A stretch of 46,492 bases of DNA, taken from NCBI GenBank assembly GCA_902826865.1, contig CADEGN010000020.1:1-46492 (forward strand), read 5' to 3'. The notes beneath the pieces are model-generated. The model worked only from the letters and a program-made list of their open reading frames with translations. It was not told the origin of the DNA and made no database searches. Position 1 is the first letter of the stretch, and each line of letters starts with the position of its first letter. Below, piece after piece: positions 10,308 through 32,371 of this stretch. A program made the position numbers and the translations under genes. The stretch is from an uncultured Myxococcales bacterium. Its GTDB lineage: Bacteria > Myxococcota_A > Polyangia > Nannocystales > Nannocystaceae.

Positions 10308-11826
10308 GCTCGAGCTCTCCGAGCTGGACGTGATCGGGGAAGGGATACACGGTCCATTCGTCGTCTTTTGCCACGTGCAGTCGCTTGTAGAACATCGGGT
10401 GAATCACGCAGTCGTCGTCCGACTGTAACTCGAGGCGCCGGCGCGAGAAGTACTCGAAGTCCGCCGAGATCACCCTGCGCTCGTGGTTGATGCGACGCAC
10501 TCGGCCGACCACGCCGAGCTCGGAGACGAGGCGACGGAAAGCGTCAGGCGAGTAGGTACCCGCTGGCCAGCTGCCAGCCGTTCGACGCGCGCGCTTGTCG
10601 AGTGAGCTGCCGGAAAACCGCACCGGTGAGCGCACGAGAGCCCCGATGATCTCGCTCGCGCTTTTGTGGATGCGGCTGTAGGAGTTGAGCACCTCGGTGG
10701 CCAACTCAAGCTCGGCCTGGCCGACGGCGGCGACGATCTGATCGCGCGTGAAACGCGGAAATGTGCCCTCATCGCGGGCCCGGCGGGCGATGGCATTGCA
10801 GATCACAACCAGCTGCCGCGGGCGCATCTGCGTGTGGCGCAGAATATAAGCAAACGTGTTTTCCTCGCCGCCGACGGCGTTGCGAAGGGTGTCACCGAAC
10901 GCCGGGTTCCAGACATGCTGGAGCACGCTCTGAAACTTGTCCCAATCGATCGCGGCGGCCATCGCCTCGGGGTCGACACCGTTGAGGTACGTGTGAAAGC
11001 GCCATGAGACCAGGCGCAGGAGATCCCTGGGCCGCCAGTCGAGAAACACCGGGGCGTGGGAGAACTTCAGCGGGTTGGCCAGTACCTTTTCCTGCAGGTG
11101 TGGGAACACTTCGGCGGTCACGAACGCCTTCATGTGAATCCCGTCGCGTACATGCTGTGTTGAAAAAGTGCTCGCGCACTGGATCAGTCCGGCGATCATC
11201 AGCATGATCGAGTCATCGTAGACATCGTAGTGCTCAAGCGAGTCGACGGAGACGATGATCGGGTGTTTGCGCGTGAACGCGAGCAGCGCTCGACGCCCGC
11301 TGGCAAACCCAGGTTCGTGTAGGCGCGCTCGCACCGCTTCGAGTAATCCGTGATCGGGGACCTCGGCGAGCTCGTCGCCGAGGCGACCAACCGCGTCGAC
11401 TACCAGCTCAGATGGCGTCCGCCGTTGGGCGAACGGACACGCGGCCTCGATGTCGGGGGACTCGTCGCGGTATTCCTGCAGCAAGAGCACCCAGATCGCC
11501 CACTCCCACACGCGCTCGATGACTGCGAGCCCCCGGTCGATCGGTAGCTCCCGGCTGTGGAGCAACCGGCCGAATACGTCCTCATAGATCGTCGGTTCAT
11601 CGACGTCGATGCATCGCGCGCCGCGCAGGCGGTGCTGAAACCCGAAGTAACGGGAAAGCGAGGTCTTCCCGCAACCTCGACGGCCGACGATGAGATAACA
11701 CGACGAGTCGAGGCAGGCCGCGTTGAACGGCGTGTGCTCGAAGTACAGGCGCGCGTAGTCGCGGCCGAGCTGCTCCTTTTCCTGCTCGCAGGAAACCTCT
11801 CCGAACGGGTTCTTTAGCTGGATCAT
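10297..11826 (-). CDS. P-loop ATPase (Sll1717-like), probable STAND/ORC-type
   Basis: Protein of 509 aa from the ATG at 11826, which begins MIQLKNPFGE. The reading frame stays open much further upstream (to 12303), but that region is Ser/Arg/Pro-rich low-complexity sequence and lacks coding character. Walker A is VGRRGCGKT at about 47-55. A Walker B-like strand is IIVSVDSLEHYD. The C-terminal third looks helical with possible winged-helix character (LVVICNAIARRARDEG and after). The NPFG...E N-terminus plus this P-loop resembles the Sll1717-type ATPase family, whose function is undefined. The gene overlaps the KAP NTPase gene by 11 bp and leads the 11826-5494 unit, so the two ATPases likely act together. 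Confidence 0.75.
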   Translation of the reverse strand: MIQLKNPFGEVSCEQEKEQLGRDYARLYFEHTPFNAACLDSSCYLIVGRRGCGKTSLSRYFGFQHRLRGARCIDVDEPTIYEDVFGRLLHSRELPIDRGLAVIERVWEWAIWVLLLQEYRDESPDIEAACPFAQRRTPSELVVDAVGRLGDELAEVPDHGLLEAVRARLHEPGFASGRRALLAFTRKHPIIVSVDSLEHYDVYDDSIMLMIAGLIQCASTFSTQHVRDGIHMKAFVTAEVFPHLQEKVLANPLKFSHAPVFLDWRPRDLLRLVSWRFHTYLNGVDPEAMAAAIDWDKFQSVLQHVWNPAFGDTLRNAVGGEENTFAYILRHTQMRPRQLVVICNAIARRARDEGTFPRFTRDQIVAAVGQAELELATEVLNSYSRIHKSASEIIGALVRSPVRFSGSSLDKRARRTAGSWPAGTYSPDAFRRLVSELGVVGRVRRINHERRVISADFEYFSRRRLELQSDDDCVIHPMFYKRLHVAKDDEWTVYPFPDHVQLGELEHGR

Positions 11827-12178
11827 CCGGGGCTCGGAGTCGGCGCGGCATGATAGGCGGCGGCGTCTGCGGCGAGCAAGGAACGGAACGTACGGGCGCG
11901 CTGACCCGTGTGACGATGCTGGCGGGGCTTGGGATCGTGTCGAGCTGCGGCGACACTTTGAGCTTGGAAGCATGTGGGTCGGGGAGCAAGCCGCTCTTCG
12001 TGAAACGGTAGAACGCGTCGCGGATTGCAACGTTCCCGGCAAACCCGCAAGCAGCGGAGGGAAGCGTCCCATCGCGCGGCGGACGCGGGTCTGGCCGGAT
12101 GGACAGGGGTGTCGCCTCCCAGCAACTAAGTCCGGCCCTGCTTGTGATCGCGGCGCGATCGCAGTACCACGCCTAACG
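11827..12178. other. Divergent intergenic region
   Basis: Gene-free 352-bp spacer between the leftward ATPase/KAP unit and rightward pyrC. Frames running through it are low-complexity extensions of the flanking genes and lack coding character. Promoters for both units must lie here, but I see no convincing -35/-10 pair. The only notable structure is the inverted repeat at 12146-12160. Confidence 0.6.
12146..12160. promoter_or_regulatory. Inverted repeat upstream of pyrC
   Basis: Perfect 6-bp arms GATCGC/GCGATC with a 3-bp centre, 18 bp before the pyrC GTG. It could be an operator or a small hairpin at the translation start. GATCGC is frequent throughout this GC-rich sequence, so chance is quite possible. 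Confidence 0.25.
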
Positions 12179-13216
12179 GTGATTGACGCGATCGAACTGG
12201 CCCGGCCCGACGATTGGCACGTCCATCTCCGCGATGGTGAGCTCCTCCGTGCGGTTGTTGGGCACACCGCGCGACAGTTCGGGCGGGCGATCGTCATGCC
12301 CAACCTGCGTCCCGCGGTGGTGACGGTGGCTGACGCACTCGCGTATCGCGATCGGATTCTCGGTGCCCTTGCGCCAGGAGTCGATTTTCAGCCGCTCATG
12401 ACCCTGTACCTCACCCCGGGCACTACGACCGCGGATGTCGAGGCCGCCGTCCGCGCGCCGCACGTGCACGCGATCAAGTTTTACCCGGCCGGTGCCACAA
12501 CCCACGCTGAAGCCGGCGTCCCCGATGTGCTCGCTTGCAGCCAGGTCTTGCGGGCAATGCAGCACCACGGCCTTCCGCTGCTGTGCCACGGCGAGAGTAT
12601 CGATCCTCACGTCGACGTGTTTGATCGCGAGGCGACATTTGTGCGTGAGACGCTGCCGCGACTCATCGATGCGTACCCAGGCCTGCGAATCGTCCTAGAA
12701 CATGTAACGACCGCCGAGGGTGTGGCCGCGGTTGAAGCGGCGCCCGAGAACGTCGCCGCCACGATCACGGCGCACCACCTCGCCTACGATCGGAATGCCA
12801 TGTTTGCCGGCGGGCTGCGGCCGCACATGTATTGCCTGCCGGTGCTCAAGCGAGCGCACCACCGCGCCGAGCTGGTGCGCGCCGCAACGTCGGGGTCGTC
12901 GAAATTCTTTCTCGGCACCGATAGCGCGCCGCACCTGCGCGGTGCAAAGGAGGCGAGCTGTGGTTGCGCAGGGATCTTCACCGCCCATGCGGCGCTCGAA
13001 TTCTACGCCGGGACATTCGCTTCGGTCGGGGCGCTCGACCGCCTCGAGCAGTTCGCCTCGAGGGCCGGTGCGGAGTTTTATGGTCTACCGGTCGCCAGCG
13101 AGCGCGTGCGTCTGGGCCGCGAGGCCTGGACGGTGCCAGCGAAGTACGATGTGGGTGACGGAGAACTCGTCCCGCTGGGCGCGGGCGAGTCGCTGCCCTG
13201 GCGCCTGCTCGTGTGA
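12179..13216 (+). CDS. pyrC: Dihydroorotase, E. coli PyrC type
   Basis: Converts N-carbamoyl-aspartate to dihydroorotate in pyrimidine synthesis, in the cytoplasm. From the GTG at 12179 the protein is 345 aa, matching the ~348 aa of class II PyrC. The longer frame from 11972 adds a stretch with no family counterpart. Diagnostic features: metal ligands in DDWHVHLRDG (H14, H16), AIVMPNL, carbamylated Lys100 in AIKFYPAGATT, His137 in LLCHGE, His175 in LEHVTT, catalytic Asp248 in FLGTDSAPH, and the PyrC-specific ESSCGCAG-like motif (EASCGCAG). All key residues are intact. The aminotransferase gene follows after 53 bp and may be cotranscribed. No other pyrimidine gene is in the window. Confidence 0.96.
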   Translation: MIDAIELARPDDWHVHLRDGELLRAVVGHTARQFGRAIVMPNLRPAVVTVADALAYRDRILGALAPGVDFQPLMTLYLTPGTTTADVEAAVRAPHVHAIKFYPAGATTHAEAGVPDVLACSQVLRAMQHHGLPLLCHGESIDPHVDVFDREATFVRETLPRLIDAYPGLRIVLEHVTTAEGVAAVEAAPENVAATITAHHLAYDRNAMFAGGLRPHMYCLPVLKRAHHRAELVRAATSGSSKFFLGTDSAPHLRGAKEASCGCAGIFTAHAALEFYAGTFASVGALDRLEQFASRAGAEFYGLPVASERVRLGREAWTVPAKYDVGDGELVPLGAGESLPWRLLV

Positions 13217-20076: not shown

Positions 20077-21249
20077 TCAGGGCGGCGTGAGCAGTCCTTC
20101 GACGACGGCGGCCAGCTCGTCGGGCGAAAGCACACCCGTCCAGCGCCGACCATTAATGAAGAAGGTTGGTGTCCCCGTGATGTTGAGCGCCGCACCCCGG
20201 GTGACGTCCGCACGCACTCGCGCGATCGCGGTGGGGTCGTCGAGGCAGGTCGTGAACGCGGATCGATCGAGTCCAACGGCCTCGGCGTAGGCAAGCAGAT
20301 CATCACGGTCGAGATCAGCTTGGTGATCGAACATCTGCTGACCGTACTCGAAGAACTTGCCCTGGCGGCGCGCACACTCGCCGGCAACGGCGGCGGCGCA
20401 AGCGTTGGGGTGGAGCTTGTCGACATCAGGGTTGCAGCTCGAGTCGAGAGGGTAGTGGGCGAAGGCCACGCGTACCCGACGACCGCTCGTCTCGGCGTAG
20501 TGCTCGACGCTCGCCCACAGTCTGCGGCAGTACGGACATTCGAAGTCGCCATACTCGATGATCGTTACCTCAGCGTCGGCCGGTCCGCGGCTTGCGGCAT
20601 CATCGGCGATCACGATCAGCACCGCGGGTTTCGCCTGAAACTCCCGGACGAGCGCTGGGACAAGCGCGTCGAAGCGCTGCTGCTCGAGTACAGTGCGTCG
20701 ATGATCGTAGTACTTCATGGTCGAAAACAGCACAGCACCGAAGATCCCAGCGGCGACGAGCGCCGGAGTTCCGAGGGCGTCGTCGAGCATGTCGCGGATG
20801 CCGAGATGCGCGTCTCGGCTGCGCCACGCGGCCCAGCCGAGCGCGGCGTTGATCCCATACCAAAGCAGGCAAAACGGGCAGTATGCGCCCTCGACAAAGG
20901 ACAGGACCGCCATCGCGATCGATGCGAGCACGCTGACGTACGCCAGCAGCACAGCCGCGGAGCGATAAGGATCGTCCCAGCGATCGCGTCGGCGCCAGGC
21001 GACCGTTGCGACCACGGCAGTCACCAGGGCGCCGGCAAAACCGATCGTCGCCACCGGAATCCCGGCGACATCGCCGAAACGTCCAGCTGTCACCGCGCAG
21101 CCGGTCGAAGAGAATTTGTGGCACGCCGCCGCTAGTCCGACGGCGCCGACCTCGTAGTCGAGGTGCACGAGCGTGAGATACAGGCCGTCGATCGCCCCGA
21201 GCAGGGCAAGTACGGCCAGAAGAAGCAGCGGCCGACGGGGGGCGCTCAC
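20077..21249 (-). CDS. VKOR-DsbA fusion, disulfide bond formation
   Basis: Protein of 390 aa joining two oxidative-folding modules. Residues 1-185 are a bacterial vitamin K epoxide reductase domain with several membrane helices, the loop cysteine pair C43/C51 and the quinone-proximal CPFC (124-127). Residues ~225-390 are a DsbA/thioredoxin-like domain with FECPYC (C238/C241) and the cis-Pro motif TGTPTFFING. Known fusions use quinone to reoxidise the thioredoxin domain, which then makes disulfides in exported proteins. Every key cysteine is present. The many Cys-rich lipoproteins nearby are plausible clients (inference). It lies 82 bp downstream of the AAA+ operon on the same strand and may be read from it. 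Confidence 0.93.
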   Translation of the reverse strand: MSAPRRPLLLLAVLALLGAIDGLYLTLVHLDYEVGAVGLAAACHKFSSTGCAVTAGRFGDVAGIPVATIGFAGALVTAVVATVAWRRRDRWDDPYRSAAVLLAYVSVLASIAMAVLSFVEGAYCPFCLLWYGINAALGWAAWRSRDAHLGIRDMLDDALGTPALVAAGIFGAVLFSTMKYYDHRRTVLEQQRFDALVPALVREFQAKPAVLIVIADDAASRGPADAEVTIIEYGDFECPYCRRLWASVEHYAETSGRRVRVAFAHYPLDSSCNPDVDKLHPNACAAAVAGECARRQGKFFEYGQQMFDHQADLDRDDLLAYAEAVGLDRSAFTTCLDDPTAIARVRADVTRGAALNITGTPTFFINGRRWTGVLSPDELAAVVEGLLTPP

Positions 21250-21331: not shown

Positions 21332-23677
21332 TTAGATCCCGAGGATGATGCGTCCGCTCCGCGCCGGTGTTCCTGCGGCCTCGTCGTGGGTGAGCACACG
21401 AAGCTCGACGTCAACGAGGGTAGGATCCTCGGCGAGCAAGCCAGCGATCGGCGCAACCAGTCGCTCCTCGATGACGCGCTTCAGCGGCCGCGCGCCCCGG
21501 GTAGGGTGCCAGCCCGCGCGGGCGACCACATCTCGGACCTCGTTGGACACGTGCAGCCGGATCCGGCGGCGACCGAAACCGGTGCGCGCAGCGAGCTTGT
21601 CGAGTTCGAGCTCAACGATCCTGCGGATGTCGGCGTGATCGAGGGTACGAAACGGGATCACGTGGTCGATGCGATTGAAAAACTCCGGGCGGAAGTGGGC
21701 CCGGACCGCGGTGGCAAGATCGCGTCCGTCACCGTCGTCGTCCGCGAAGCCAGGGCGCGCGGTCGTGCGAATCCCGATATTGCTCGTCATCACGACGAGC
21801 GTCATGCGGCCGTCCACGAGCCGTCCGTCCACATCGGTGAGCCGACCCTCACCGAGCAGGCCGAGCAGAAGGTCGAACACCTCCGGGTGGGCCTTTTCGA
21901 TCTCGTCGAATAGGAGAAGGGACAGGGGGCGCTCGCGCAGGCGCTCGACCAGGCTCCGCACGCCGCGACCGGTGGCGAGCAAACGCTGAGCAGCGCCAGA
22001 AAGCATGTACTCGCTCATGTCGAAGCGAAGCATCCGATCGGCGTCGCCGAACATGTAGCGGGCGAGTTGCTTGGCGAGCTCGGTCTTGCCGACGCCCGTG
22101 GGGCCGACGAAAAACAGGCTGCCGATCGGACGCTCCGGGTCGTTGAGGCCAGACTTGAGGCGCGTGAGCACCCGCGCTGCGACGGAGCACGCGGCGTCCT
22201 GGCCGATCACGCCGGCGCACAGCGCCCGGGTGATGTCCTCACGACTGGCGACGTGGTTATCCGACACGAGTTCGAGCGGCAGGCCGGTGCTCTCGGCGAA
22301 CGCCTCCGAGATCGCCGCAGCGTCGAGCACCAGCGCGTCGCCTTCGCGCGTGCCCGATGGGATCGCCTCGTCACTCTGATTTGCGGCAGGATCGGCGACA
22401 GCGCCTGTTGTCGCTGTCCGTTCGCCGGCGCCGTACATGCGGCCGAGTGTGTCGAGGAAGCGGAAACCCTTGCCCGGAAATGCGATGTCGCGCTGAAAGA
22501 ACTCCAAGTGAGACACGAGCCGTCGCAGTCCCGCCCCATCGATCCGCAGCTCGGGAGCCTCGCGGGTCTGGTAGATGGCCAAGATCGCCGGCATTGCGGC
22601 GGCCGCCAATGGTTCGACGCGAATGACCTCGAAATGCGCGAGCAAAGCCGGGGCACGCTGGCTCAGGCGTTGAAGCTCTTCGACGGTACACTCCGAGATG
22701 ATCGCGACTTCGTCGGCCAACACCGCGGGCGCGAGCAGGTCGGCGATGGACGAGCGACCGCTCTGCGGGGCGAGGAGCGGGGCGAGGCGGTCGAAATATA
22801 ATAGATCGCGCTCGCCCGAGAGTTCCGCCACCAGTTCGAGGCAGCGTTTTTCCCACATGCCCAGGTAGGTCATGCCGGCCACGATGCGATCGGCGGAGCT
22901 CGCCCAGAGCCTGCGACGCTCGTCACCCTCGCGACGCCCGAGCTCGCGCGCGAGCACGCGAACGCGCGTGGTTTTGCCTGCGCCCGCAGGACCCACGAGG
23001 AGCAGCGACCGAGGACGTTCTCCGCCGACGGCCTCGAGTTCGGCGCGGACGTCGACGGTTCCGACGATTCGGCGCCCCGCACGGCGTCGCTCGCGGTCCA
23101 CCAGGTCCTCCGCGATCTGGTGGAGGACTGGTGTTCGGTCGGTGCCGGCATCGAATCGCGAGGACGTCTTGGCCCGGGACAGCGTCGGCATCCATGCAAC
23201 GACGCGCTCGTGGGCGGCGTCGCGGAGGGCGTACACGCTGGCAGCACGTTCTCCGAGCAGCGCCGAGAAGATCGTCTGCCGCAGCACGTTTGGCGCGATC
23301 TCGAGATCCTCGATCATCAGCATCCAGTCGAGGGCCGGTACCAAGACGTGATACCCACCACTGGCGATCGGAGCCCACGCGTAGTGGACCTGTAACCCAA
23401 GCGGTTCTCGACCGATCACCACGCGCTTGCGGAAGACGGTTTGCGGGTGAACAAAGACCTCGAGCTTGCGGACGGAAAGCTCTTCGGTCCAAAGAAAAGG
23501 CCCGCGGTCGCGAACGTTTTCCTCGATGCCGAGGGCGAGCTGCGACAAGACCTCGTCGTCGGTCCGGCCGTAGGCGGTGGGCGGCGCCATCTCGGTGCCG
23601 ATCTTGGCCAGGAGCCGACCGGTGATCCGGCCGTCGTGGTGGGTCGTGAGGTGCACGCGATAGGTTGGGCGGGTCAT
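21332..23677 (-). CDS. Clp-like tandem AAA+ ATPase (gene D of the AAA+ operon)
   Basis: Protein of 781 aa. The ATG at 23677 overlaps gene C's stop as ATGA. Residues ~1-190 form the beta-rich N-terminal region shared with genes A and B. AAA module 1: Walker A GPAGAGKT (229-236), pore-loop-1-like AGMTYLGMWEKR (267-278), and Walker B LLYFDR, where the usual Glu is Arg. AAA module 2: Walker A GPTGVGKT (525-532), Walker B LLLFDEIEKAHP (588-599), sensor 1 TSN (631-633), arginine finger in FFNRID (R669), and sensor 2 GARPLKR (728-734). The region between Walker A and B of module 2 lacks the GYVG loop of ClpB/ClpA. There is no Clp_N repeat, no ClpB M-domain and no ClpP-docking loop. It is therefore a Clp relative but not a standard unfoldase. 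Confidence 0.9.
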   Translation of the reverse strand: MTRPTYRVHLTTHHDGRITGRLLAKIGTEMAPPTAYGRTDDEVLSQLALGIEENVRDRGPFLWTEELSVRKLEVFVHPQTVFRKRVVIGREPLGLQVHYAWAPIASGGYHVLVPALDWMLMIEDLEIAPNVLRQTIFSALLGERAASVYALRDAAHERVVAWMPTLSRAKTSSRFDAGTDRTPVLHQIAEDLVDRERRRAGRRIVGTVDVRAELEAVGGERPRSLLLVGPAGAGKTTRVRVLARELGRREGDERRRLWASSADRIVAGMTYLGMWEKRCLELVAELSGERDLLYFDRLAPLLAPQSGRSSIADLLAPAVLADEVAIISECTVEELQRLSQRAPALLAHFEVIRVEPLAAAAMPAILAIYQTREAPELRIDGAGLRRLVSHLEFFQRDIAFPGKGFRFLDTLGRMYGAGERTATTGAVADPAANQSDEAIPSGTREGDALVLDAAAISEAFAESTGLPLELVSDNHVASREDITRALCAGVIGQDAACSVAARVLTRLKSGLNDPERPIGSLFFVGPTGVGKTELAKQLARYMFGDADRMLRFDMSEYMLSGAAQRLLATGRGVRSLVERLRERPLSLLLFDEIEKAHPEVFDLLLGLLGEGRLTDVDGRLVDGRMTLVVMTSNIGIRTTARPGFADDDGDGRDLATAVRAHFRPEFFNRIDHVIPFRTLDHADIRRIVELELDKLAARTGFGRRRIRLHVSNEVRDVVARAGWHPTRGARPLKRVIEERLVAPIAGLLAEDPTLVDVELRVLTHDEAAGTPARSGRIILGI

Positions 23678-24408
23678 TTCGGCGCCTCAACGCGATCGCG
23701 ATCGAGCGCGAGCATCCACATGGTTGGCAGCGCATCGCGTAGGTTGCCGACGTGCCGCTGCAGCGTGTGCGCGAGACTATGGTCTGTGATCGTGATGGGC
23801 ACCGGGCCGTCTTGGTGGGGACCGTCAAAGTGGTAGGTGCGTACGATCGGCGGGACCGAGTCTGGGTTGTCGGGCAAGCTCGGATCTCCACGTTCGAGGG
23901 CTTCGATGAATCTATGGCGGGCGTGCGCGAGCCGGGCGATATGTTCAGCTGGGGCGAGGGAGAGCCCGCGATAGACACGGACACGCACCACCTCCGTCGA
24001 TCCGGACATCGCGTGTCGCACGTGGCAGCCGTGCTCCCCCGCGAGGAAGGTCGAGATCGCCGGGCCGGCGATACGCAGCGCGGCGATCGCAACCGCGCAC
24101 GGCAGCGGGCCCGCGTGGGGTACGGGTTCGGGCGTCTCGTCACCCTCGCGAACGATCGCCATCGCCTCAACCAGACCGCGTCCTGTGGCGTATGCGTCCG
24201 CGAGCCACTCGAGCAACCCCGGTGCGGCCGCCGCAAATCGGCTGCAGTTGGCGCGACTGATCCGCGTGAGCTCGAGCAGGACTGTATGCTCGTCCGGATC
24301 ATCGGCGCGGCCGATCGCCAACTCGAGCAGGCGAAGCTCCGTCAGTTGGGCGACGACGTCGTGGGCGGTGCGCAGCGGAAGTACGGGCACCATTGCTCGG
24401 GCATCCAT
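23674..24408 (-). CDS. Release-factor-like protein lacking the GGQ domain (gene C)
   Basis: Protein of 244 aa from the ATG at 24408. An upstream in-frame ATG at 24624 lies inside gene B and is rejected. Residues 1-85 are helical. Residues 108-146 (LRIAGPAIST, FLAGEHGCHV, VVRVRVY) align by eye with the strand pair and EAGVHRL segment of the RF1/RF2 PCRF region. Residues 188-230 (IVRTYHFDG, ITDHSLAHTL) match the conserved IRTYNF...VTDHR...TL segment that follows the GGQ domain in release factors. The ~110-residue block that normally bears GGQ is reduced to about 40 residues with no GGQ, so peptidyl-tRNA hydrolysis is not expected. Decoding or ribosome-docking mimicry is inferred. The gene lies 31 bp after gene B and overlaps gene D by ATGA. 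Confidence 0.65.
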   Translation of the reverse strand: MDARAMVPVLPLRTAHDVVAQLTELRLLELAIGRADDPDEHTVLLELTRISRANCSRFAAAAPGLLEWLADAYATGRGLVEAMAIVREGDETPEPVPHAGPLPCAVAIAALRIAGPAISTFLAGEHGCHVRHAMSGSTEVVRVRVYRGLSLAPAEHIARLAHARHRFIEALERGDPSLPDNPDSVPPIVRTYHFDGPHQDGPVPITITDHSLAHTLQRHVGNLRDALPTMWMLALDRDRVEAPK

Positions 24409-24439
24409 CGTACGGAGGTGGCTGCGCCGGCCGAAACTC

Positions 24440-27364
24440 TCACCCCCCAGCCGGGCGTTCCACGCTACCAGCAACTTCGGCTTCGCGGAGTTCGTCTTCG
24501 ATCGGGTCCTCGCCCGGCTCAAGTACCGGATCATAGCTGCGCTGAAGTTCCAAGCGTTCGCGCAGGGCGCCGAGCTCAGCGCGGATGCTGTCGATGTCGA
24601 AGGCAAGCTGGCCCGCGTTGGCATCGCCAGCGCTGGACGGGCGCAGGAGACTCGCGAGTGTCAGCGACAGCCTGCTCACGTCTGCTCCAGCAAGCAGGGC
24701 CTCGACGCGGTCGAGCGCGGCCGGGATCTCGTGTCGGAGCTCGCGGGCACTGCGATCGAGCAGCCCGCCGAGTCGGCCGGGACGGCCGCCGATGGTTGCC
24801 TCACGCAGATGTTCGGCGTGAAGATGCAGACGTCCATCGCGGACGAACAACCAAAACACCCGCAGCGCCGAAGCGCGCTCCGCCGCGATCGAGTCAGCAA
24901 GCCAGGCACCGATCGCATCTTCAAGCCATCGTTTGAGCGAACGCGCGCCGTCGCGGTGCGCAAAGCCGTGGCGAACGACAAAGGCGATCACCCCGGGACT
25001 GTGGCGCACAAACACGTTGCGCTCGACCAGGCCCGCGCGCGAGAGCATCCGAGTGAGCTCGCGCTCGGCGATTCGAAGCGCCACCTCGCTGGTCAGGGCG
25101 GCGAACGGGACGATGCGGTCGATGCGATTGAACAACTCGGGCGGGAAAAACTGGCGCACCGCCGCGTCAACGTCGGCGCGTGAGGCTACCGGTGCGTCGC
25201 CGAACCCCGGCGCCGGCGCGCGCGCGGCCCCAAGGTTCGATGTCATGAGCACCACGGTGTGGCTGAAGTCGATGGTCTGTCCGTTTGCGTCCGTCAGGCG
25301 AGCGTCGTCGAAGAGCTGCAACATCAGCGCAAGCACCGACGGATCGGCCTTGTCGATCTCGTCGAGTAGCACCACACAGAACGGCTGGGCCCGTACGGCG
25401 CTGGTCAAGGTGCCGGTCGGGCGCGAGCGATCGCCCAACAGACGAGCCGGCGCGTCCGGGCCCGCGTACTCGCTCATGTCGAGCCGGACGAGGCGGCCGG
25501 CATCGCCGTAGAGATACTCGGCCAGGCACTTGGCGATTTCAGTCTTTCCGGTGCCGGTCGGTCCGCAAAGCAACAGCACGCCGTAGGGCCGCCCGGGATC
25601 CGCGAGCTGTGTGCGCATTCGCAGGATAAGATCGACAATGGCGGCCACAGCTGGCGACTGGCCAACGATCTGCGAACTGAACGCAGCCTCGACCGCCTCG
25701 CCCGCAAGACGCGTGTCGGGCACGAGCAGCGCCGAAGGCACGCCGGTGCGCGTGGTCAACATGCGCACGAGCGCGTCTGGGCCGAGGGTCAGGGCGCCAT
25801 CGTCGTCGTCGAAACGAGCGTCAAGCGTGCCCCGCACCACGGCGTACGGCGGGCTTTCGCGGCTGTGCGCACGCGTCCAGCGGCCGGCGGAGGCGAAACG
25901 CTCGACGGCGTCCTTGGAGTCCCGCAGGCCTGCACCCGTGATCTCGCGATAACGCATGATCGCACCGATCTTGTTGCCGCGCGCGAGCTCGGCTTCGACC
26001 CCGGCGAACTCGGCTGCTGTGTTGCGGCTGCGGACGAGCTCGCTGATCAGTCCAAGGGAGCGCCCAGGTTCAACGATGCCGCTCGTGAGGGCCGGCCCGA
26101 GTTCGGTCAGCGTGCGAAAGGTACGCGGATCCAACGCGCCGCCGTGATCGAGCTCGAGCGCGCGCGTGAGGTCGAGGACGAGGCGCTGGGTAGTGGCCGT
26201 GTCGGTCGGGTCGATCCACAGGATCGTGAACGCGGCCACGAAAGCGGGGGCGTCATCTTGGAGGATCTGCAGCTGCTCTGCGGTACACTCGGCGACGACG
26301 ACGAGCTCCCCCCGGGCGATCGGACCGCGGAAAAACGTCGCCAAGGAGCGGTCGGCCTCGCGACTCTCGCCGATCCGCCCCCACGCGTGGAGATCGTCGA
26401 CCCAGAGGATCGCTCTTTGGTCACGACAAGCATCGAGCAGGTCGACGCAACGCTGCTCCCACTGACCGAGATACGACATGCCGGCGATGATGCGGTTGCC
26501 GCGGATCTTCCAGACCGCATGTGTGCGGTCGAGGTTGCGATGGGCGTCGAAGCCGTCGGCTGCCAAGAGGTCGTGGATCATCCGATTTAGCAGCGCGCTC
26601 TTGCCTGCGCCGCTCGGACCCACGAGCAACACCGAGGCCTTGCGCTCGCCGCAAACAAGGTGCTGCAGCTGCTCGCGCCAGGGTGAGCGCGGTGAGCAGG
26701 AGGGCAGACGATCGTCGGCAGCGCGCTCGGTCTGGTCGCTGCCGAGCTCGCTGAGCAGGGCCGCGCCGCGCTTGCCCGCGCCCTCGCCGAGCACGTTGAA
26801 TCGCTCGCGGTCTTCGCGTTTCTCCAGGTGGTCGAACACGCTCCGACAACGGACCGAAAACGCGACCAGCAGCAGGCGATTGCGTTCGCGGCTCTCGCAG
26901 CGCAGTTGGTCGAAGTCAGCCTTGTCGAGCTCGGCCCAGGCGGTGCGAAAGTAGGCGCTCGCTTCATCCGCGAGCTCGCGGTGGAGGTCGTGTGCGAACC
27001 ACTCTTCGCTGCGCAACGGGTGATAGGCGATCCACTGCGGTTCACCGTCATCGTTGTCGATGACGCCGCGGGCACGCGGCTCGAGGACCAGGGGGATCCT
27101 GGCGCGAAGCACGGTTTTGCGGTGCTCGATCGCGACCTCGAGCGTCACGAACTCGAGGCGCCGGCCGGGGATCGGTTCGAGTTCTTCGAGCTCGTGGGGC
27201 CACAGCCGCGCCACCGCGACGCGTAGATGTGCGATCAGTTTGCTGCGCAGTTTTCCGGCGTGCACCCCTCGCTCTTGCCGATCGTGTCGACCGAGCCCAA
27301 CCGTGGTCCACACCAACCGCGGGCCGATCTTGCGCTCAAACACCGTGACCGCGAGATCAGTCAC
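24440..27364 (-). CDS. Clp-like tandem AAA+ ATPase with bL12-CTD-like insert (gene B)
   Basis: Protein of 974 aa. Its ATG overlaps gene A's stop as ATGA. The N-terminal ~230 residues include the beta-rich region shared with A and D. AAA module 1: Walker A GPSGAGKS (249-256), pore-loop-like AGMSYLGQWEQR (294-305), and Walker B ILWVDDLHAW, where Asp replaces the usual Glu. Between modules, residues ~460-490 (GNKIGAIMRYREITG, LRDSKDAVERF) strongly resemble the ribosomal L7/L12 C-terminal helix-turn-helix. AAA module 2: Walker A GPTGTGKT (601-608), Walker B VLLDEIDKADP, TSN (708-710), FNRIDR (R747), and sensor 2 GARSLKR (806-812). The D2 GYVG loop is absent. A ~150-residue helical, charged tail follows. 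Probably acts in complex with A, C and D. Confidence 0.9.
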   Translation of the reverse strand: MTDLAVTVFERKIGPRLVWTTVGLGRHDRQERGVHAGKLRSKLIAHLRVAVARLWPHELEELEPIPGRRLEFVTLEVAIEHRKTVLRARIPLVLEPRARGVIDNDDGEPQWIAYHPLRSEEWFAHDLHRELADEASAYFRTAWAELDKADFDQLRCESRERNRLLLVAFSVRCRSVFDHLEKREDRERFNVLGEGAGKRGAALLSELGSDQTERAADDRLPSCSPRSPWREQLQHLVCGERKASVLLVGPSGAGKSALLNRMIHDLLAADGFDAHRNLDRTHAVWKIRGNRIIAGMSYLGQWEQRCVDLLDACRDQRAILWVDDLHAWGRIGESREADRSLATFFRGPIARGELVVVAECTAEQLQILQDDAPAFVAAFTILWIDPTDTATTQRLVLDLTRALELDHGGALDPRTFRTLTELGPALTSGIVEPGRSLGLISELVRSRNTAAEFAGVEAELARGNKIGAIMRYREITGAGLRDSKDAVERFASAGRWTRAHSRESPPYAVVRGTLDARFDDDDGALTLGPDALVRMLTTRTGVPSALLVPDTRLAGEAVEAAFSSQIVGQSPAVAAIVDLILRMRTQLADPGRPYGVLLLCGPTGTGKTEIAKCLAEYLYGDAGRLVRLDMSEYAGPDAPARLLGDRSRPTGTLTSAVRAQPFCVVLLDEIDKADPSVLALMLQLFDDARLTDANGQTIDFSHTVVLMTSNLGAARAPAPGFGDAPVASRADVDAAVRQFFPPELFNRIDRIVPFAALTSEVALRIAERELTRMLSRAGLVERNVFVRHSPGVIAFVVRHGFAHRDGARSLKRWLEDAIGAWLADSIAAERASALRVFWLFVRDGRLHLHAEHLREATIGGRPGRLGGLLDRSARELRHEIPAALDRVEALLAGADVSRLSLTLASLLRPSSAGDANAGQLAFDIDSIRAELGALRERLELQRSYDPVLEPGEDPIEDELREAEVAGSVERPAGG

Positions 27365-30300
27365 GCCCCGTCCTCCATGAGCGGATCGCGACCGTCCGCG
27401 ACCCGCGCGACAATTGCCCCAAACAGCAGGCGCTCAAGCAATCCAGGGCTCTCGAGATCTAGGTTGGGTGTGGACACGATCCCGTCGCGCGCGAGCGAGA
27501 TGCTGCCATCGGCAAACACCTCGCGCGCAGCGACGAGCTTGGGCAGCTGCTCTTGTGGTGTCGCTTGCGAGAGGCCGTAGCGGTCGCTGCTAAGGTCGTC
27601 TTTGCTCGGATGTGCGCTCCAGGCGAGCACTCGCACGCCTGTGTGATCGGGGCGGGCACGATCGACATACCAGCGGCGGTGAAGCCCTGCATCGCAGCCG
27701 AGTAGACCTCCGGCGCAGGTTCCGGACGCGCGAATGAGCAGCGCCTGGCAGGCGCTCCACGTCGGATCGTCGTGGGCAAGCAGCTGATCGCGTAGCTCGG
27801 ATGCCTTGCGTGGCGGCCCCCACGCGACGTCGTGTGGCCAATCGCCGCCGCGCTTGGGATCGAGGTGACGGTGGACGGTCATCTGCCAGCCGCGCTGTTC
27901 ACCGATTCGCACGACTTCGTCGAAGTGTTGCAGCAACCTCTCGGGGCTGCCGAGCCGACGGAGCTCGAGCGTGATCGCATCCGCAGCACGAACAGAGAAG
28001 ATCGTGATGACAAACTCGCGCTCAAACGTGGCATGGGCGGCGCGGGCCTCCTCGACTCGTTCATCGACGAACAGTCCTTCGCCAGCTGCGGCGAGCGCGA
28101 GCTCTTCGATGGTGGCGAGCGTGCTAGCGCATGCATCGAGGCGGGCGAGGGCCTCACGAATTCGCTCGTGTTCGCGTAGCGAACCCAGCATGTTTGCTTT
28201 GGCGTGGGGGCCCGCGCTCCGCTGTCCTCGGGCGAGGTCAGCGGTTAGATAGGCGATGCGGGCGCGCGTCTCCACGATGGGCTCGAGCTGCATGCATGCG
28301 TCGACGTTCCGGCGCAACCGGGCAATTTGTGCGAGAGGAGCGAGGTGTGGAGTGAGACGATGACGGGCTCGGCGGACGATCGCCAAGGCGATCGCGGCAG
28401 TGCTGCGTCGGCCGATCACCTGGCCGCTTTCCGCAGCAAGGGATCGATCGACGTCCGCCGCGTCGACGCCAGCGACGACAAGCGCGCCATCGGCATCTCC
28501 CCCGGCGTTTGAAAGCAGTCGGGCGATCGGGGCGACGAGCTCGTCTTCGAGGCCCCGCCGCAGAGCACGTGCGCCGTACGCCGGCGAGTAGGCGACAGTG
28601 GCGATCCGTGCGAGGGCGTCGGGCGTTACCCGCAGCTCGATGCTCCGATTCACGAGCCCGCTGCGCTCGCGAAATCGCTTCAAGGAGACCTCGGCGACGG
28701 CGGCGATTTCCTCCTCTCTCAGACTCGAGAACGGGATCACCCGATCGATGCGGTTGACAAACTCGGGTCGGAAATGGCGGTCGACTTGCTCGACGTAGTG
28801 GCGGCGCTCGGCCTCGGCATCGAATGCATCCGCGCGGCCACCGAAGCCTGAGTGCGAGCGTCCGCGATGGCTCGCACCGAGGTTGCTGGTCATGATGACG
28901 ATCGCGTTGTGAAACCACGTGGTTTGACCGCGAGCATCGGTGAGGCGTCCCTCGCCAAGAACCTGAAGAAGCAGGTCGAAGACCGCCGGGTGAGCCTTCT
29001 CGATCTCGTCGAGAAGCAAGACGCAAAACGGTTGCTGGCGCACGCGGCGGGTTAGCTCGCCGTCGTCGCGGTCAGTGCCTCGGATGAGCCGCTCGGCTGC
29101 GTACGGGTCGGCGTACTCGCTCATGTCGAAGCGAACCAGGCGATCGCTGGCACCGAACAAGATATGCGCGAGTGTCTTGGCGACTTCGGTCTTACCGACG
29201 CCGGTCGGCCCGACGAACAGGAAATTCGCGAGCGGCTTGCCCGGGGGTTGCAGCCGAGCCTTAATGGCGCACAAGGTGTCGATCACGCGAGCGACGGCCT
29301 CGTGCTGGCCGATGACGCGCCGGCGGAACTCGTCGTCTAGCGTCGCGCGACGCAGGCGTTGGTCCTCGCGCAGCAAAAACATCGGGATACCGGTGCGCCG
29401 GCCGAACGCGCGGTGTACGTCGTGGACGCCGATGGTGTAGGGGCTTCCGTCGGGCGTTACGTCGTGCTCGTGCACAGCGCGGAGCTCGTCGAAGAGGCGC
29501 ACTGCCTTGCCTGGCTGGGCTTGCTCAGGGAAGTAACGCTCGCACAGCTCGAGAAGTGGTTCGATGGCCTCGGCGGCGAGGGCCGGGCGGTCGGGGTGGC
29601 GGCGGCGCATATGATCGTTGCGAGCGCGTAGCAGCGTCCGGGTTGCGTCCAACGACAGTGGCTCGATCGCCAGTCGCTGAAACGCGGCCATCAGCGCGCC
29701 GTGGTGTTTCTCGTGCTGTTCGAAGGCCTCGGGCGTGCTCTCACCAACAATGCGCACGCGACCGGCCGAGATCCACGGTCGCATCGTGGCGGTCAGGTCC
29801 TCCATCCCCCCCGGACGACCCGCGAAGAGGTCGGCGAAGCTATCGAAGTACAAAATCGCGTCGACTTCCTCGGCGGCCGCCATCACCTTGGTAACGCGAT
29901 CCTGCAGCTGACCGAAGCCGGACTGACCTGCGACAAGGCGCGCGCCGGAGGTCGCGAACACAGGCCGGGTGCGGAACTCGACGATCCGCTGGGAGAGGAG
30001 TTCCTCGATCACGCTGGTCTTCCCGCAACCCGAGGGACCGACGAGCGCGACGCATCCTGCCCGGTCGCTGCCGAGCAGGGCGGCGAGCCGACGAATTTCG
30101 CGATCGCGACCGATCCGCGGCGGGAGGTGACTGCGCAGCGAGGGACGAAGCATGTCGTCCCCGATCTCAGCTAGGAGCTTGCGCGACTGCTCGCGTGAGC
30201 GTTGCCCATGCTTGGCGCGGCGGGCCGCCGTCCGCTGACCCAGGTCGGAGAGGTCGCTGCGTTCGACGACAAGATCGACCGCGAGTAGATGGATCTCGTC

Positions 30301-30801
30301 GGCAGGAAATAGCTCGAGGAACTGCAGCGGGGTGGGCTCGCGGGCCGCGACGATGCGTCGGACTTCGTCGCCGACACGGGTGCAAAGGTCCGCACCGGGC
30401 GCTACGTGGATGATGTGCCGTAGGGGCAGGATGTGAACCCATGGCGGCGACGGTTCGGCGCTGTCGGCCGCTGGGCCGTGGCGCGTCAGTACGTCAGGCA
30501 CGAGCACGCATGGGATCGCGATCGGACGATCGATCGCAAACCGCCGGGGCAAGTCCGGACGGTTCACGCGCACGGGGATTTCGACAAGCGAAGTGTCCTT
30601 GGGGAACACGAACCGCGCGAGCTGATCCGCCGGTAGTTTGGCGAGGTAGTCCGCGAGAAACGTGGCCTGCGTGGTCAGGGCCTCGTCGAGCGTTGCGGTG
30701 ACGCAAACCAGGCGAGGATCCGCGAGCGGATGGGCATAGAAGCTCGCCGGGCCGCGGCGTCGGACGACGACCAAGGGGCTCAGATCGATGCGACTGCCCA
30801 C
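27361..30801 (-). CDS. Clp-like tandem AAA+ ATPase with C-terminal PCRF-like domain (gene A)
   Basis: Protein of 1146 aa if started at the GTG at 30801 (VGSRIDLSPL); the open frame runs on to 30993 with no coding character. N-terminal region shared with B and D (~60-180). AAA module 1: Walker A GPSGCGKT (255-262), Walker B ILYFDS without Glu. AAA module 2: Walker A GPTGVGKT (531-538), Walker B LLLDEIEKAHP (595-605), TSN (638-640), FVNRIDR (R684), sensor 2 GARALRR (743-749). Again no GYVG loop. Residues ~817-1065 resemble the first two domains of RF2: long helices (REHERIREALARLD), then AADAITLELRRL, EQRGWQMTVHR, LLIRASG and DAGLHRRW, parallel to RF2's AESRGFKTEI and ETGVHRLV. No GGQ follows. 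First gene of the operon. Confidence 0.88.
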   Translation of the reverse strand: MGSRIDLSPLVVVRRRGPASFYAHPLADPRLVCVTATLDEALTTQATFLADYLAKLPADQLARFVFPKDTSLVEIPVRVNRPDLPRRFAIDRPIAIPCVLVPDVLTRHGPAADSAEPSPPWVHILPLRHIIHVAPGADLCTRVGDEVRRIVAAREPTPLQFLELFPADEIHLLAVDLVVERSDLSDLGQRTAARRAKHGQRSREQSRKLLAEIGDDMLRPSLRSHLPPRIGRDREIRRLAALLGSDRAGCVALVGPSGCGKTSVIEELLSQRIVEFRTRPVFATSGARLVAGQSGFGQLQDRVTKVMAAAEEVDAILYFDSFADLFAGRPGGMEDLTATMRPWISAGRVRIVGESTPEAFEQHEKHHGALMAAFQRLAIEPLSLDATRTLLRARNDHMRRRHPDRPALAAEAIEPLLELCERYFPEQAQPGKAVRLFDELRAVHEHDVTPDGSPYTIGVHDVHRAFGRRTGIPMFLLREDQRLRRATLDDEFRRRVIGQHEAVARVIDTLCAIKARLQPPGKPLANFLFVGPTGVGKTEVAKTLAHILFGASDRLVRFDMSEYADPYAAERLIRGTDRDDGELTRRVRQQPFCVLLLDEIEKAHPAVFDLLLQVLGEGRLTDARGQTTWFHNAIVIMTSNLGASHRGRSHSGFGGRADAFDAEAERRHYVEQVDRHFRPEFVNRIDRVIPFSSLREEEIAAVAEVSLKRFRERSGLVNRSIELRVTPDALARIATVAYSPAYGARALRRGLEDELVAPIARLLSNAGGDADGALVVAGVDAADVDRSLAAESGQVIGRRSTAAIALAIVRRARHRLTPHLAPLAQIARLRRNVDACMQLEPIVETRARIAYLTADLARGQRSAGPHAKANMLGSLREHERIREALARLDACASTLATIEELALAAAGEGLFVDERVEEARAAHATFEREFVITIFSVRAADAITLELRRLGSPERLLQHFDEVVRIGEQRGWQMTVHRHLDPKRGGDWPHDVAWGPPRKASELRDQLLAHDDPTWSACQALLIRASGTCAGGLLGCDAGLHRRWYVDRARPDHTGVRVLAWSAHPSKDDLSSDRYGLSQATPQEQLPKLVAAREVFADGSISLARDGIVSTPNLDLESPGLLERLLFGAIVARVADGRDPLMEDGA

Positions 30802-30991
30802 GCGGGTGGAGCATACCCGCGGCGATCGGAGTGCCGCTCGCGCTGGCCGACGGCCCGTTCGTGGGCCAGGGGCGGCCAGCCGGTTGGCCGGGTTGGGGCG
30901 CTGGCACGCCGACCTCCGCGGAACATCGAGGGCTGCGACCTGGCACGGGGCTCGCACGACGAAACACCCCGTGGCCCAATCTCCGATCGAC
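30802..30991. promoter_or_regulatory. Divergent region between AAA+ operon and transposase
   Basis: Spacer of 190 bp between the leftward gene A start and the rightward transposase ATG. It must contain the operon promoter. I see no clear promoter boxes, terminal inverted repeat or target duplication here. Confidence 0.35.
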
Positions 30992-32371
30992 ATGGATCAT
31001 CCGACTCCTCCGACCATCCCGTTTGAGCAGCTCGAGCTACTCGGGGTTCGGCCCAGGCGGGTGGGAGACGGACTCGCCGGGTCTCTGACACGCGCGCAGT
31101 TACGCTGGACAGGCGCACGGCTGCCCTGTGCCGGGGCCATCGAGTTGCATTGTCCGAGCTGCGGCGCGCGCGGCCAGTTTCACTTCCGTTGCGCAGGGCA
31201 ATGCCACGATCGCTGCACGCACGGCGAGCAGGCCGCGTCGTCGCTCATGCGCGTGATTCCACGGGTCCCGGTGCGGCATTGGGTGCTGACGGTTCCCGCA
31301 GGTCTTCGCCGTGCTGCCGCGACGGATCAGAAACTTGCCGCGCTGCTGTGCCGAACCTTGGTCAGCGAAGTTGGCCGCCACCTCCGTGCGGCATGTGCCG
31401 CGCCCGATCAGCCTGCGGAGGCAGGCGCGGCGAGCTTGATCCATCGCGCCGGATCATCGCTGGATCTCAACGTGCACGTGCATGCGCTCGTTCTCGACGG
31501 CGTGTATGTTCAGTCTCCCGGGGATGCGGCGCAGTTCGTTCCCCTTCCCGACGAGCCGAGCGAGGCGCAGTTGCAAGCGATCACGCGCGGAATCCGGGCC
31601 CGACTGCGGGAGAAGGGCGCGCGCGTGGCCGCACTCGCGGATTGGAGTTTGTCGCAGGCGAGCAGCGACGGACCGATGGCCGCGACGGCCATCCGAAAGA
31701 TCCGCGCCGATGGTCCTATCGCCGCACGGCGTAGCAAGGTCGCCGCGGGGTCGGCGGCCGATGGCTTTGGTGTGCACGCGATGGAGCGGGTCGACGCGTC
31801 GGCCCGTGGCGCGTTGCGTCGACTGGCGAACTACCTGGTGCGCGCGAAGGTTGTCTTGGCCGATCTTCGCGCCGGCGCGGGTGATCGCGTGATTCAGCAA
31901 CTCGCGGTGCCCTGGTCGGATGGAACGACACATGTCGAGTTTTCCTCGCGCGAGCTCGCCCGCCGCCTCGTCGCCCTCACGCCGAGCGAACGGATCCATC
32001 GCGTGTCGTATCACGGCGTGCTTGCGCCTCGGGCCGCGGCCCGCTGGCGGTTGCACGCGCAGCAACTTCCGCTCGTGCCCGATGTGCCGATCCGACAGCC
32101 CCTTGTCGCAGGCGAGCCGTCGGCGACTCCTCCTCCGAGCCGCGCCGCGCGGCGCTTCCACCCCTCGACGTGCGGTCGCTGCGGGGGCCGCCTGCGCGTC
32201 GTCGCCGTGGAGGAGCGGGCTGATCCGGCCCTCTTCGCGTGTGAACACCGCAAAGGGCCTGCCCACGCCGCCGCGGCCGCCCGTGCCCCGCACGTAACCG
32301 CCGTCTTCCCCCCAGCTAGTCCAGGCGACCGCGCGCGTACACGCTCGTCAGGGGCACGCCGTGGAGCGTGA
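30992..32371 (+). CDS. IS91-like (HUH) transposase, divergent, probably immobile
   Basis: Protein of 459 aa from the ATG at 30992. An N-terminal zinc-binding segment (C54-x2-C57 ... C67, C71, C75) is followed by the family's VPVRHWVLTVP, the HRAGSSLDLNVHVHAL block bearing the HUH pair (HVH, 162-164), LANYL with the candidate catalytic Tyr, PWSDGTTHVEF, and RVSYHGVLAPRA. A terminal zinc-ribbon-like CGRCGGRLRVVAV follows. These are landmarks of IS91-type rolling-circle transposases, though the N-terminal GRGFCPSC motif has diverged and the C-terminus is an Arg/Ser/Ala-rich extension. That extension overlaps the convergent glycosyltransferase gene by 56 bp, so no intact element end is evident. 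Either a remnant or a domesticated copy. Confidence 0.8.
   Translation: MDHPTPPTIPFEQLELLGVRPRRVGDGLAGSLTRAQLRWTGARLPCAGAIELHCPSCGARGQFHFRCAGQCHDRCTHGEQAASSLMRVIPRVPVRHWVLTVPAGLRRAAATDQKLAALLCRTLVSEVGRHLRAACAAPDQPAEAGAASLIHRAGSSLDLNVHVHALVLDGVYVQSPGDAAQFVPLPDEPSEAQLQAITRGIRARLREKGARVAALADWSLSQASSDGPMAATAIRKIRADGPIAARRSKVAAGSAADGFGVHAMERVDASARGALRRLANYLVRAKVVLADLRAGAGDRVIQQLAVPWSDGTTHVEFSSRELARRLVALTPSERIHRVSYHGVLAPRAAARWRLHAQQLPLVPDVPIRQPLVAGEPSATPPPSRAARRFHPSTCGRCGGRLRVVAVEERADPALFACEHRKGPAHAAAAARAPHVTAVFPPASPGDRARTRSSGARRGA

Follow-up and report, generated by a model that had tools for sequence, protein, structure and literature searches.

A three-subunit Clp-like AAA+ unit with release-factor-like C-termini in Myxococcota and its possible action on ribosomes

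Between positions 21332 and 30801 of contig CADEGN010000020.1, from an uncultured Myxococcales bacterium of the Nannocystaceae (assembly GCA_902826865.1), four open reading frames run leftward as a single unit; the whole stretch analysed, 46,492 nucleotides, is referred to here as the window. Three of the frames, A, B and D, encode proteins with two tandem AAA+ domains (D1 and D2) related to those of ClpA and ClpB, and a small frame, s, lies between B and D. Neighbouring frames overlap by 4 bp at 27361-27364 (A/B) and at 23674-23677 (s/D), and a gap of 31 bp (24409-24439) separates B from s. An earlier note, made from the sequence alone, had described these frames, their strand, the two overlaps, the gap and the three tandem-AAA+ proteins, all of which were recovered here. 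Gene A spans about 1146 aa when counted from the GTG at 30801, close to where homology with its relatives begins. The unit combines a Clp-like motor with bodies resembling translational release factors, and may act on ribosomes (Table 1).

The unit comprises three genes and not the four of the operon first proposed, s being the C-terminus of B. Comparison with homologous regions from 17 related genomes showed that B is mostly about 1150-1280 aa long in those genomes, and that s, with its motifs LRIAGP..F.AGEHGCHV and IVRTYHFD...ITITDHSLA, aligns to the final ~245 residues of B in 14 of the 14 relatives aligned. The frame of s can also be followed upstream, where it still aligns with B of the relatives, and a six-C run (GGGGGG in the gene) stands directly before the stop codon of B. 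The break may reflect a frameshift, either recent or programmed, or else an error of sequencing or assembly (the assembly is in 628 contigs). Two further accounts of s were considered and set aside. An independent fourth protein is ruled out, as s corresponds to the C-terminus of B in every relative checked, and pseudogene decay has left no sign of drift, the identity between s and one relative (L033) being 44%, the same as that between two relatives (L031 and L033).

The C-termini of A and of B together with s are class-I release-factor (RF) bodies made up of RF domains 1, 2 and 4. When the window's proteins were compared with Pfam, NCBIfam and PADLOC the AAA+ domains were matched, and the RF family PCRF was absent among the matches listed; the C-terminal stretches gave no match when searched alone, the last ~350 residues of A matching no Pfam family. 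Pfam alone would wrongly reject the RF relationship of these proteins, and profiles are needed to see it. A profile of the A C-terminus built from 17 homologues returned RF2 as its twelve best matches among all PDB sequences (E 9e-4), and one built from 44 homologues placed RF2 first among all PDB chains (E 2.1e-7), its best 26 matches all being class-I release factors (RF1 or RF2). PCRF was matched individually by 13 of these 44 C-termini (best 6.3e-5) and was the most frequent family, and hhalign comparison of the A C-terminus gave 97% with RF profiles (E 2.3e-10 over 234 columns) and 0.3% with a control in which RF was reversed. AlphaFold folded the window's A C-terminus with a predicted local distance difference test (pLDDT) score of 91.9 and a predicted template modelling (pTM) score of 0.86; since the window's own B is split, its C-terminus was modelled from a same-genus homologue, L077 (pLDDT 87.8, pTM 0.84). 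Class-I release factors filled the top 38 Foldseek matches of the A model and the top 42 of the B model. Structural alignment by VIA-align paired A with RF1 (1rq0_B; Z 13.7, 234 residues, 4.3 Å) and B with RF2 (1gqe; Z 14.0, 257 residues, 5.1 Å), the best unrelated matches reaching Z 10.4 and 8.8, respectively, over the helical part only. The core of RF domains 2 and 4 alone superposes at about 3 Å over 135-146 residues, and the RF signature G-x2-A-x4-L-x2-E-x-G-x-H is kept in the modules. Sequence profiles of the B C-terminus did not find release factors in the PDB, and for B the relation was reached only by structure and by chaining through A and distant families. The prediction of PCRF in A and of a GGQ-less RF body in the small protein was confirmed and STRENGTHENED by the PDB profiles, the PCRF matches, AlphaFold and Foldseek/VIA-align; an RF fold is predicted and homologous loci carry the modules, the two points on which the earlier note had staked its case, and its RF part survives. 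As a separate observation, the A C-terminal domain (27364-28434, reverse strand) carries a strongly conserved W-P-x2-R-x-W-G-P-P-R between two strands of RF domain 2, with no evident counterpart in RF1 or RF2.

The strict A-B-D unit was found at about 46 loci in a scan of genome contigs, some of them cut by contig ends, nearly all in Myxococcota; hosts include Plesiocystis, Enhygromyxa, Sorangium, Archangium and Hyalangium. A more distant set, with two AAA+ genes of ~1100 aa and one of ~780 aa, occurs in Planctomycetota, Verrucomicrobiota and Acidobacteriota, as a second myxobacterial type, and in a few metagenome-assembled genomes labelled Lysobacterales and Sericytochromatia. RF modules are present in both long subunits in Myxococcota, Planctomycetota, Verrucomicrobiota and Acidobacteriota, with hhalign to RF giving 94% for the distant first subunits, 89% for most distant second subunits, 96% for first subunits of the second myxobacterial type and about 0.3% for the reversed-RF control. 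A tree of the D2 domains from 122 unit proteins, together with four Clp proteins encoded by the window's genome, recovered A, B and D each as one clade (support 100/100, 100/100 and 100/99), joined D to the distant third subunits (99/94), placed the distant first and second subunits largely in clades of their own and split the unit proteins from these four Clp proteins (100/98). The sequences thus compared suggest that the three-subunit machine is ancient. Within the window's family, the B C-terminus and D occur in the same 10 of 29 genomes, the remaining genomes carrying neither: the three-subunit unit is accessory, and is inherited whole. Two side observations belong with this distribution. 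The three-gene set lies on two metagenome-assembled contigs labelled Lysobacterales (Gammaproteobacteria; L133 and L156), for which horizontal transfer or mis-binning is possible, and six loci in Myxococcaceae/Archangiaceae (L125-L128, L130 and L134) make up the second, divergent three-gene type, in clades of its own.

The window's genome also has genuine RF1- and RF2-type genes, so the unit is no replacement for them. Full-length transfer-messenger RNA (tmRNA) is found in most genomes of the family, with and without the unit, which, together with the patchy presence, fits an accessory role in stress or conflict. A ring triggered by phage or toxin damage to ribosomes, which would then disable or rescue translation, could account for an all-or-none, patchy occurrence over several phyla, and a survey of release-factor evolution (PMC6514570) describes RF variants that answer ribosome-targeting effectors as rescue factors. 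PADLOC also returned weak, generic DolB and PDC-M37B matches; these are limited to the AAA+ core, however, and the whole gene set matches no known anti-phage system. With neither an effector nor a sensor conserved at the loci, nor a defence-island setting, and with gene-order clades that suggest long joint descent, we give a dedicated defence function little credence.

In losing parts of the release factor, the modules appear to have lost its chemistry. RF domain 3 is absent: the structural alignments extend over RF residues 105-353 but pair only about 140 of them. Among 122 C-termini, 6 contain GGQ, scattered at non-equivalent positions, and neither the PxT/SPF tripeptide nor the GG-E/D helix tip is conserved on inspection of the alignments. 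With GGQ and the codon-reading motifs gone, stop decoding and peptidyl-tRNA hydrolysis are not expected of the modules, and the A-site mimicry proposed earlier would have to be read from the fold alone. Binding without catalysis is what would be expected of such an RF in hibernation or protection, where the bodies would sit in the A site of ribosomes that are idle or under attack and keep other factors out, the AAA+ ring loading or removing them; baeRF-1 families without the catalytic Gln adjoin hibernation factors in operons (PMC6514570). A large ATP-driven ring would nevertheless be a costly means of passive protection, and hibernation genes are not among the conserved neighbours. The same proposal could draw on a helical hairpin in B that resembles the factor-binding hairpin of the bL12 C-terminal domain (CTD) and could meet translational GTPases, but most members lack it, and we regard a hibernation role as improbable. 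In the window this hairpin matches positions 8-37 of the 67 in PF00542 (E 4e-4, under the gathering score), and 26-30 residues of it recur at the equivalent place in five close Nannocystaceae relatives, with E 1e-5 to 6e-3 and scores that never reach the Pfam cut-off; it is absent from L036 and L038, of the same family and another genus, and from B of the other aligned families. The hairpin is best taken as a genuine local resemblance and not as a core part of the unit. Where a bL12 CTD had been reported in B, a local likeness of 30 residues therefore stands and the full domain, of which less than half is covered, does not; stalk mimicry as a core feature has to be given up for a hairpin that is partial and lineage-specific.

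The nearest curated models for A, B and D are ClpA and ClpB, at scores far under the equivalog cut-offs. Motor motifs were read in A (n=43), B (n=46) and D (n=39) and in 78 distant proteins, with inspection of the commonest variants. In all of these groups D2 retains Walker A, the DE of Walker B and the arginine finger, and carries a shorter, non-aromatic loop in place of the ClpB-type GYVG pore loop. In D1, Walker A is retained, the pore loop is mostly hydrophobic (SGFG/SGLG, SYLGQW, YLGMW) and the catalytic glutamate has been lost, with FDD/FDN/FEN, xDDL/xEDL or DRL instead of IDEL. Together these motifs point to a D2 predicted to be active and a D1 predicted to bind nucleotide without hydrolysing it. 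The N-terminal regions of the three proteins matched no Pfam family, Clp_N included, nor did 30 D N-termini match it, and for the N-terminal domain of D neither PDB nor Pfam yielded anything convincing. Almost every A, B, D or distant protein, but not the genome's ClpB, has an xGF motif at the position of the ClpP loop (IGF/L), which is no more than suggestive of ClpP docking. The genome has two clear ClpP genes.

Our preferred reading, to which we assign a probability of a little under one half (about 0.48), is that of a three-subunit Clp-like machine whose RF bodies dock at the ribosome while its ring does mechanical work. Three paralogues with distinct ends that are inherited jointly would be expected to assemble as one mixed ring. 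Because the D2 motifs are kept and the D1 glutamate is lost, D2 would be the ATP-hydrolysing motor that performs conformational work, and D1 a static gripping ring that binds nucleotide without hydrolysis and lines the pore. The two RF bodies would serve as a targeting device, docking without peptide release at the factor-binding or A-site region of the ribosome or on a ribosome-bound factor, and the ring might then dislodge a bound factor, tRNA or nascent chain, or split a stalled or damaged ribosome. The domain make-up, the motifs kept and lost, the joint inheritance and the split from the genome's own Clp proteins are observed, whereas we infer the mixed ring, the ribosomal target and the kind of work in this scheme. 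More tentative still is the fuller proposal of a new ribosome-remodelling machine of at least four phyla, in which the dead RF bodies of a mixed A-B-D ring engage stalled or damaged ribosomes and the force of D2 clears them. Of the heteromeric AAA+ ring with translation modules that the earlier note envisaged, a set of three AAA+ paralogues bearing GGQ-less RF bodies is retained, and the bL12 module and the count of four genes are dropped.

Several observations weigh against this reading. The codon-contacting parts (GG-E/D tip and PxT/SPF) are missing along with GGQ, the part that contacts the peptidyl-transferase centre, and the fold may have been kept for some other use; divergence of the C-termini is fast, with mean column identities of 31% and 30%; second subunits of the second myxobacterial type have a B-related C-terminus without a direct RF match, being linked to RF only through B (96.9%) and scoring below 1% against RF itself by hhalign; and no conserved neighbour genes tie the unit to translation, any sharing of neighbours being confined to close relatives. 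The first two of these are also what would be expected of the main rival, in which the RF bodies were exapted as scaffolds or substrate adaptors away from the ribosome and the ring is an ordinary Clp-type remodeller of some other substrate, possibly docking to ClpP. The xGF motif and the two ClpP genes lean the same way, yet the motif by itself is no proof of ClpP binding, and standard threading unfoldases have a GYVG pore loop that is missing from D2. Two subunits moreover retain one and the same RF body (domains 1, 2 and 4) over a phylum-level split, as if an RF-shaped surface mattered, and we consider exaptation away from the ribosome unlikely, if the most serious competitor to docking at the ribosome.

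Bacterial ribosome rescue is carried out by tmRNA, ArfA/ArfB, PrfH, RqcH and similar factors, and eukaryotes couple Cdc48 to the RF-like Vms1. PrfH (RF-H), a rescue release factor for damaged ribosomes that keeps GGQ and pairs with RtcB, is a specialised RF relative and appears among the structure matches (9mor/9mq4, Z 6.8-8.5); the modules described here differ from it in lacking GGQ and in their AAA+ ring. They fold like domains 1, 2 and 4 of RF1 and RF2, with which they also share the G-x2-A-x4-L-x2-E-x-G-x-H signature, but they are without domain 3/GGQ, PxT/SPF and the GG-E/D tip and are joined to an AAA+ motor. ClpA and ClpB (HSP100) have in common with the unit two AAA+ modules and a D2 with ClpB_D2-small, Walker A/B and the arginine finger, whereas the unit has no Clp N-domain match, D1 catalytic glutamate or D2 GYVG, forms a clade separate from the genome's own Clp proteins, and consists of three fixed paralogues with RF C-termini. 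The unit falls outside both parent families by some of their defining features. Vms1/ANKZF1-Cdc48 and Pelota/Dom34 (with ABCE1) pair an RF-type protein with an ATPase on stalled ribosomes and resemble the proposed working of the unit, as an analogy only, for they use an unrelated archaeo-eukaryotic RF fold and another ATPase. Dom34 is itself without the catalytic Gln, and the release-factor survey does not mention Clp (PMC6514570). No fusion of an AAA+ protein with the body of a class-I RF is described in the literature searched, from which most subscription papers and preprints were excluded, in agreement with the earlier note, whose author knew of no such system. Should ribosomes prove to be its target, the unit would represent a bacterial counterpart of Vms1-Cdc48 in which motor and RF are covalently linked; even without ribosome action, two RF bodies stripped of catalysis and decoding on a three-paralogue motor over a phylum-level split would constitute an unexpected exaptation. 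Cultured hosts exist (Plesiocystis, Enhygromyxa, Sorangium, Archangium, Verrucomicrobium, Acanthopleuribacter and Zavarzinella), and the system is therefore testable.

Table 1. Genes, domains and motifs of the A-B-D unit, with positions in the window.
Feature	Position	Strand	Description
Gene A	27361..30801	-	Novel N-terminal domain, AAA+ D1, AAA+ D2, release-factor-like C-terminal domain
A D1	29614..30117	-	Walker A kept; Walker B Glu lost (FDS; relatives FDD/FDN/FEN); hydrophobic pore loop SGFG
A D2	28507..29238	-	GPTGVGKTE, LLDEIEKAH and Arg finger kept; GYVG replaced by IRGTDRDDG
A release-factor-like domain	27385..28347	-	RF domains 1, 2, 4; without domain 3/GGQ
Gene B as read in contig	24440..27364	-	974 aa; shorter than relatives' B
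B D1	26165..26647	-	GPSGAGKSA at Walker A; AGMSYLGQWEQR as pore loop; no catalytic Glu in Walker B region ILWVDDLH
bL12-CTD-like helical hairpin, KIGAIMRYREITGAGLRDSKDAVERF	25895..25984	-	In B, between D1 and D2; 30 residues; lineage-specific
B D2	24875..25591	-	GPTGTGKTE at Walker A and LLDEIDKAD at Walker B; FPPELFNRID; loss of GYVG pore loop
B helical part resembling RF domain 1	24500..24787	-	From AlphaFold model of L077 homologue
Six-C run CCCCCC	24443..24448	-	Frame-break site
Small ORF s	23674..24408	-	C-terminal part of B in relatives; RF domains 2 and 4
Gene D	21332..23677	-	N-terminal domain, AAA+ D1, AAA+ D2; 781 aa; without RF-like C-terminus
D D1	22658..23020	-	Arg in place of the catalytic Glu (YFDRL); pore loop AGMTYLGMWEKR
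D D2	21428..22132	-	Walker A/B and Arg finger intact; loss of GYVG pore loop

Elsewhere in the window, at 7329-12303 on the reverse strand, a KAP-family P-loop NTPase of 992 aa (PF07693, E 1.8e-30) overlaps by 11 bp a 668-aa frame with a P-loop-like GRRGCGKTS and no Pfam match, and the pair looks like a two-gene KAP NTPase unit. On the forward strand, a divergent frame for a putative Y2_Tnp transposase (30788-32371; PF04986, E 2.7e-16) overlaps the start of gene A, and a VKOR-DsbA-type thioredoxin fusion (20077-21249, reverse strand) lies directly downstream of gene D.

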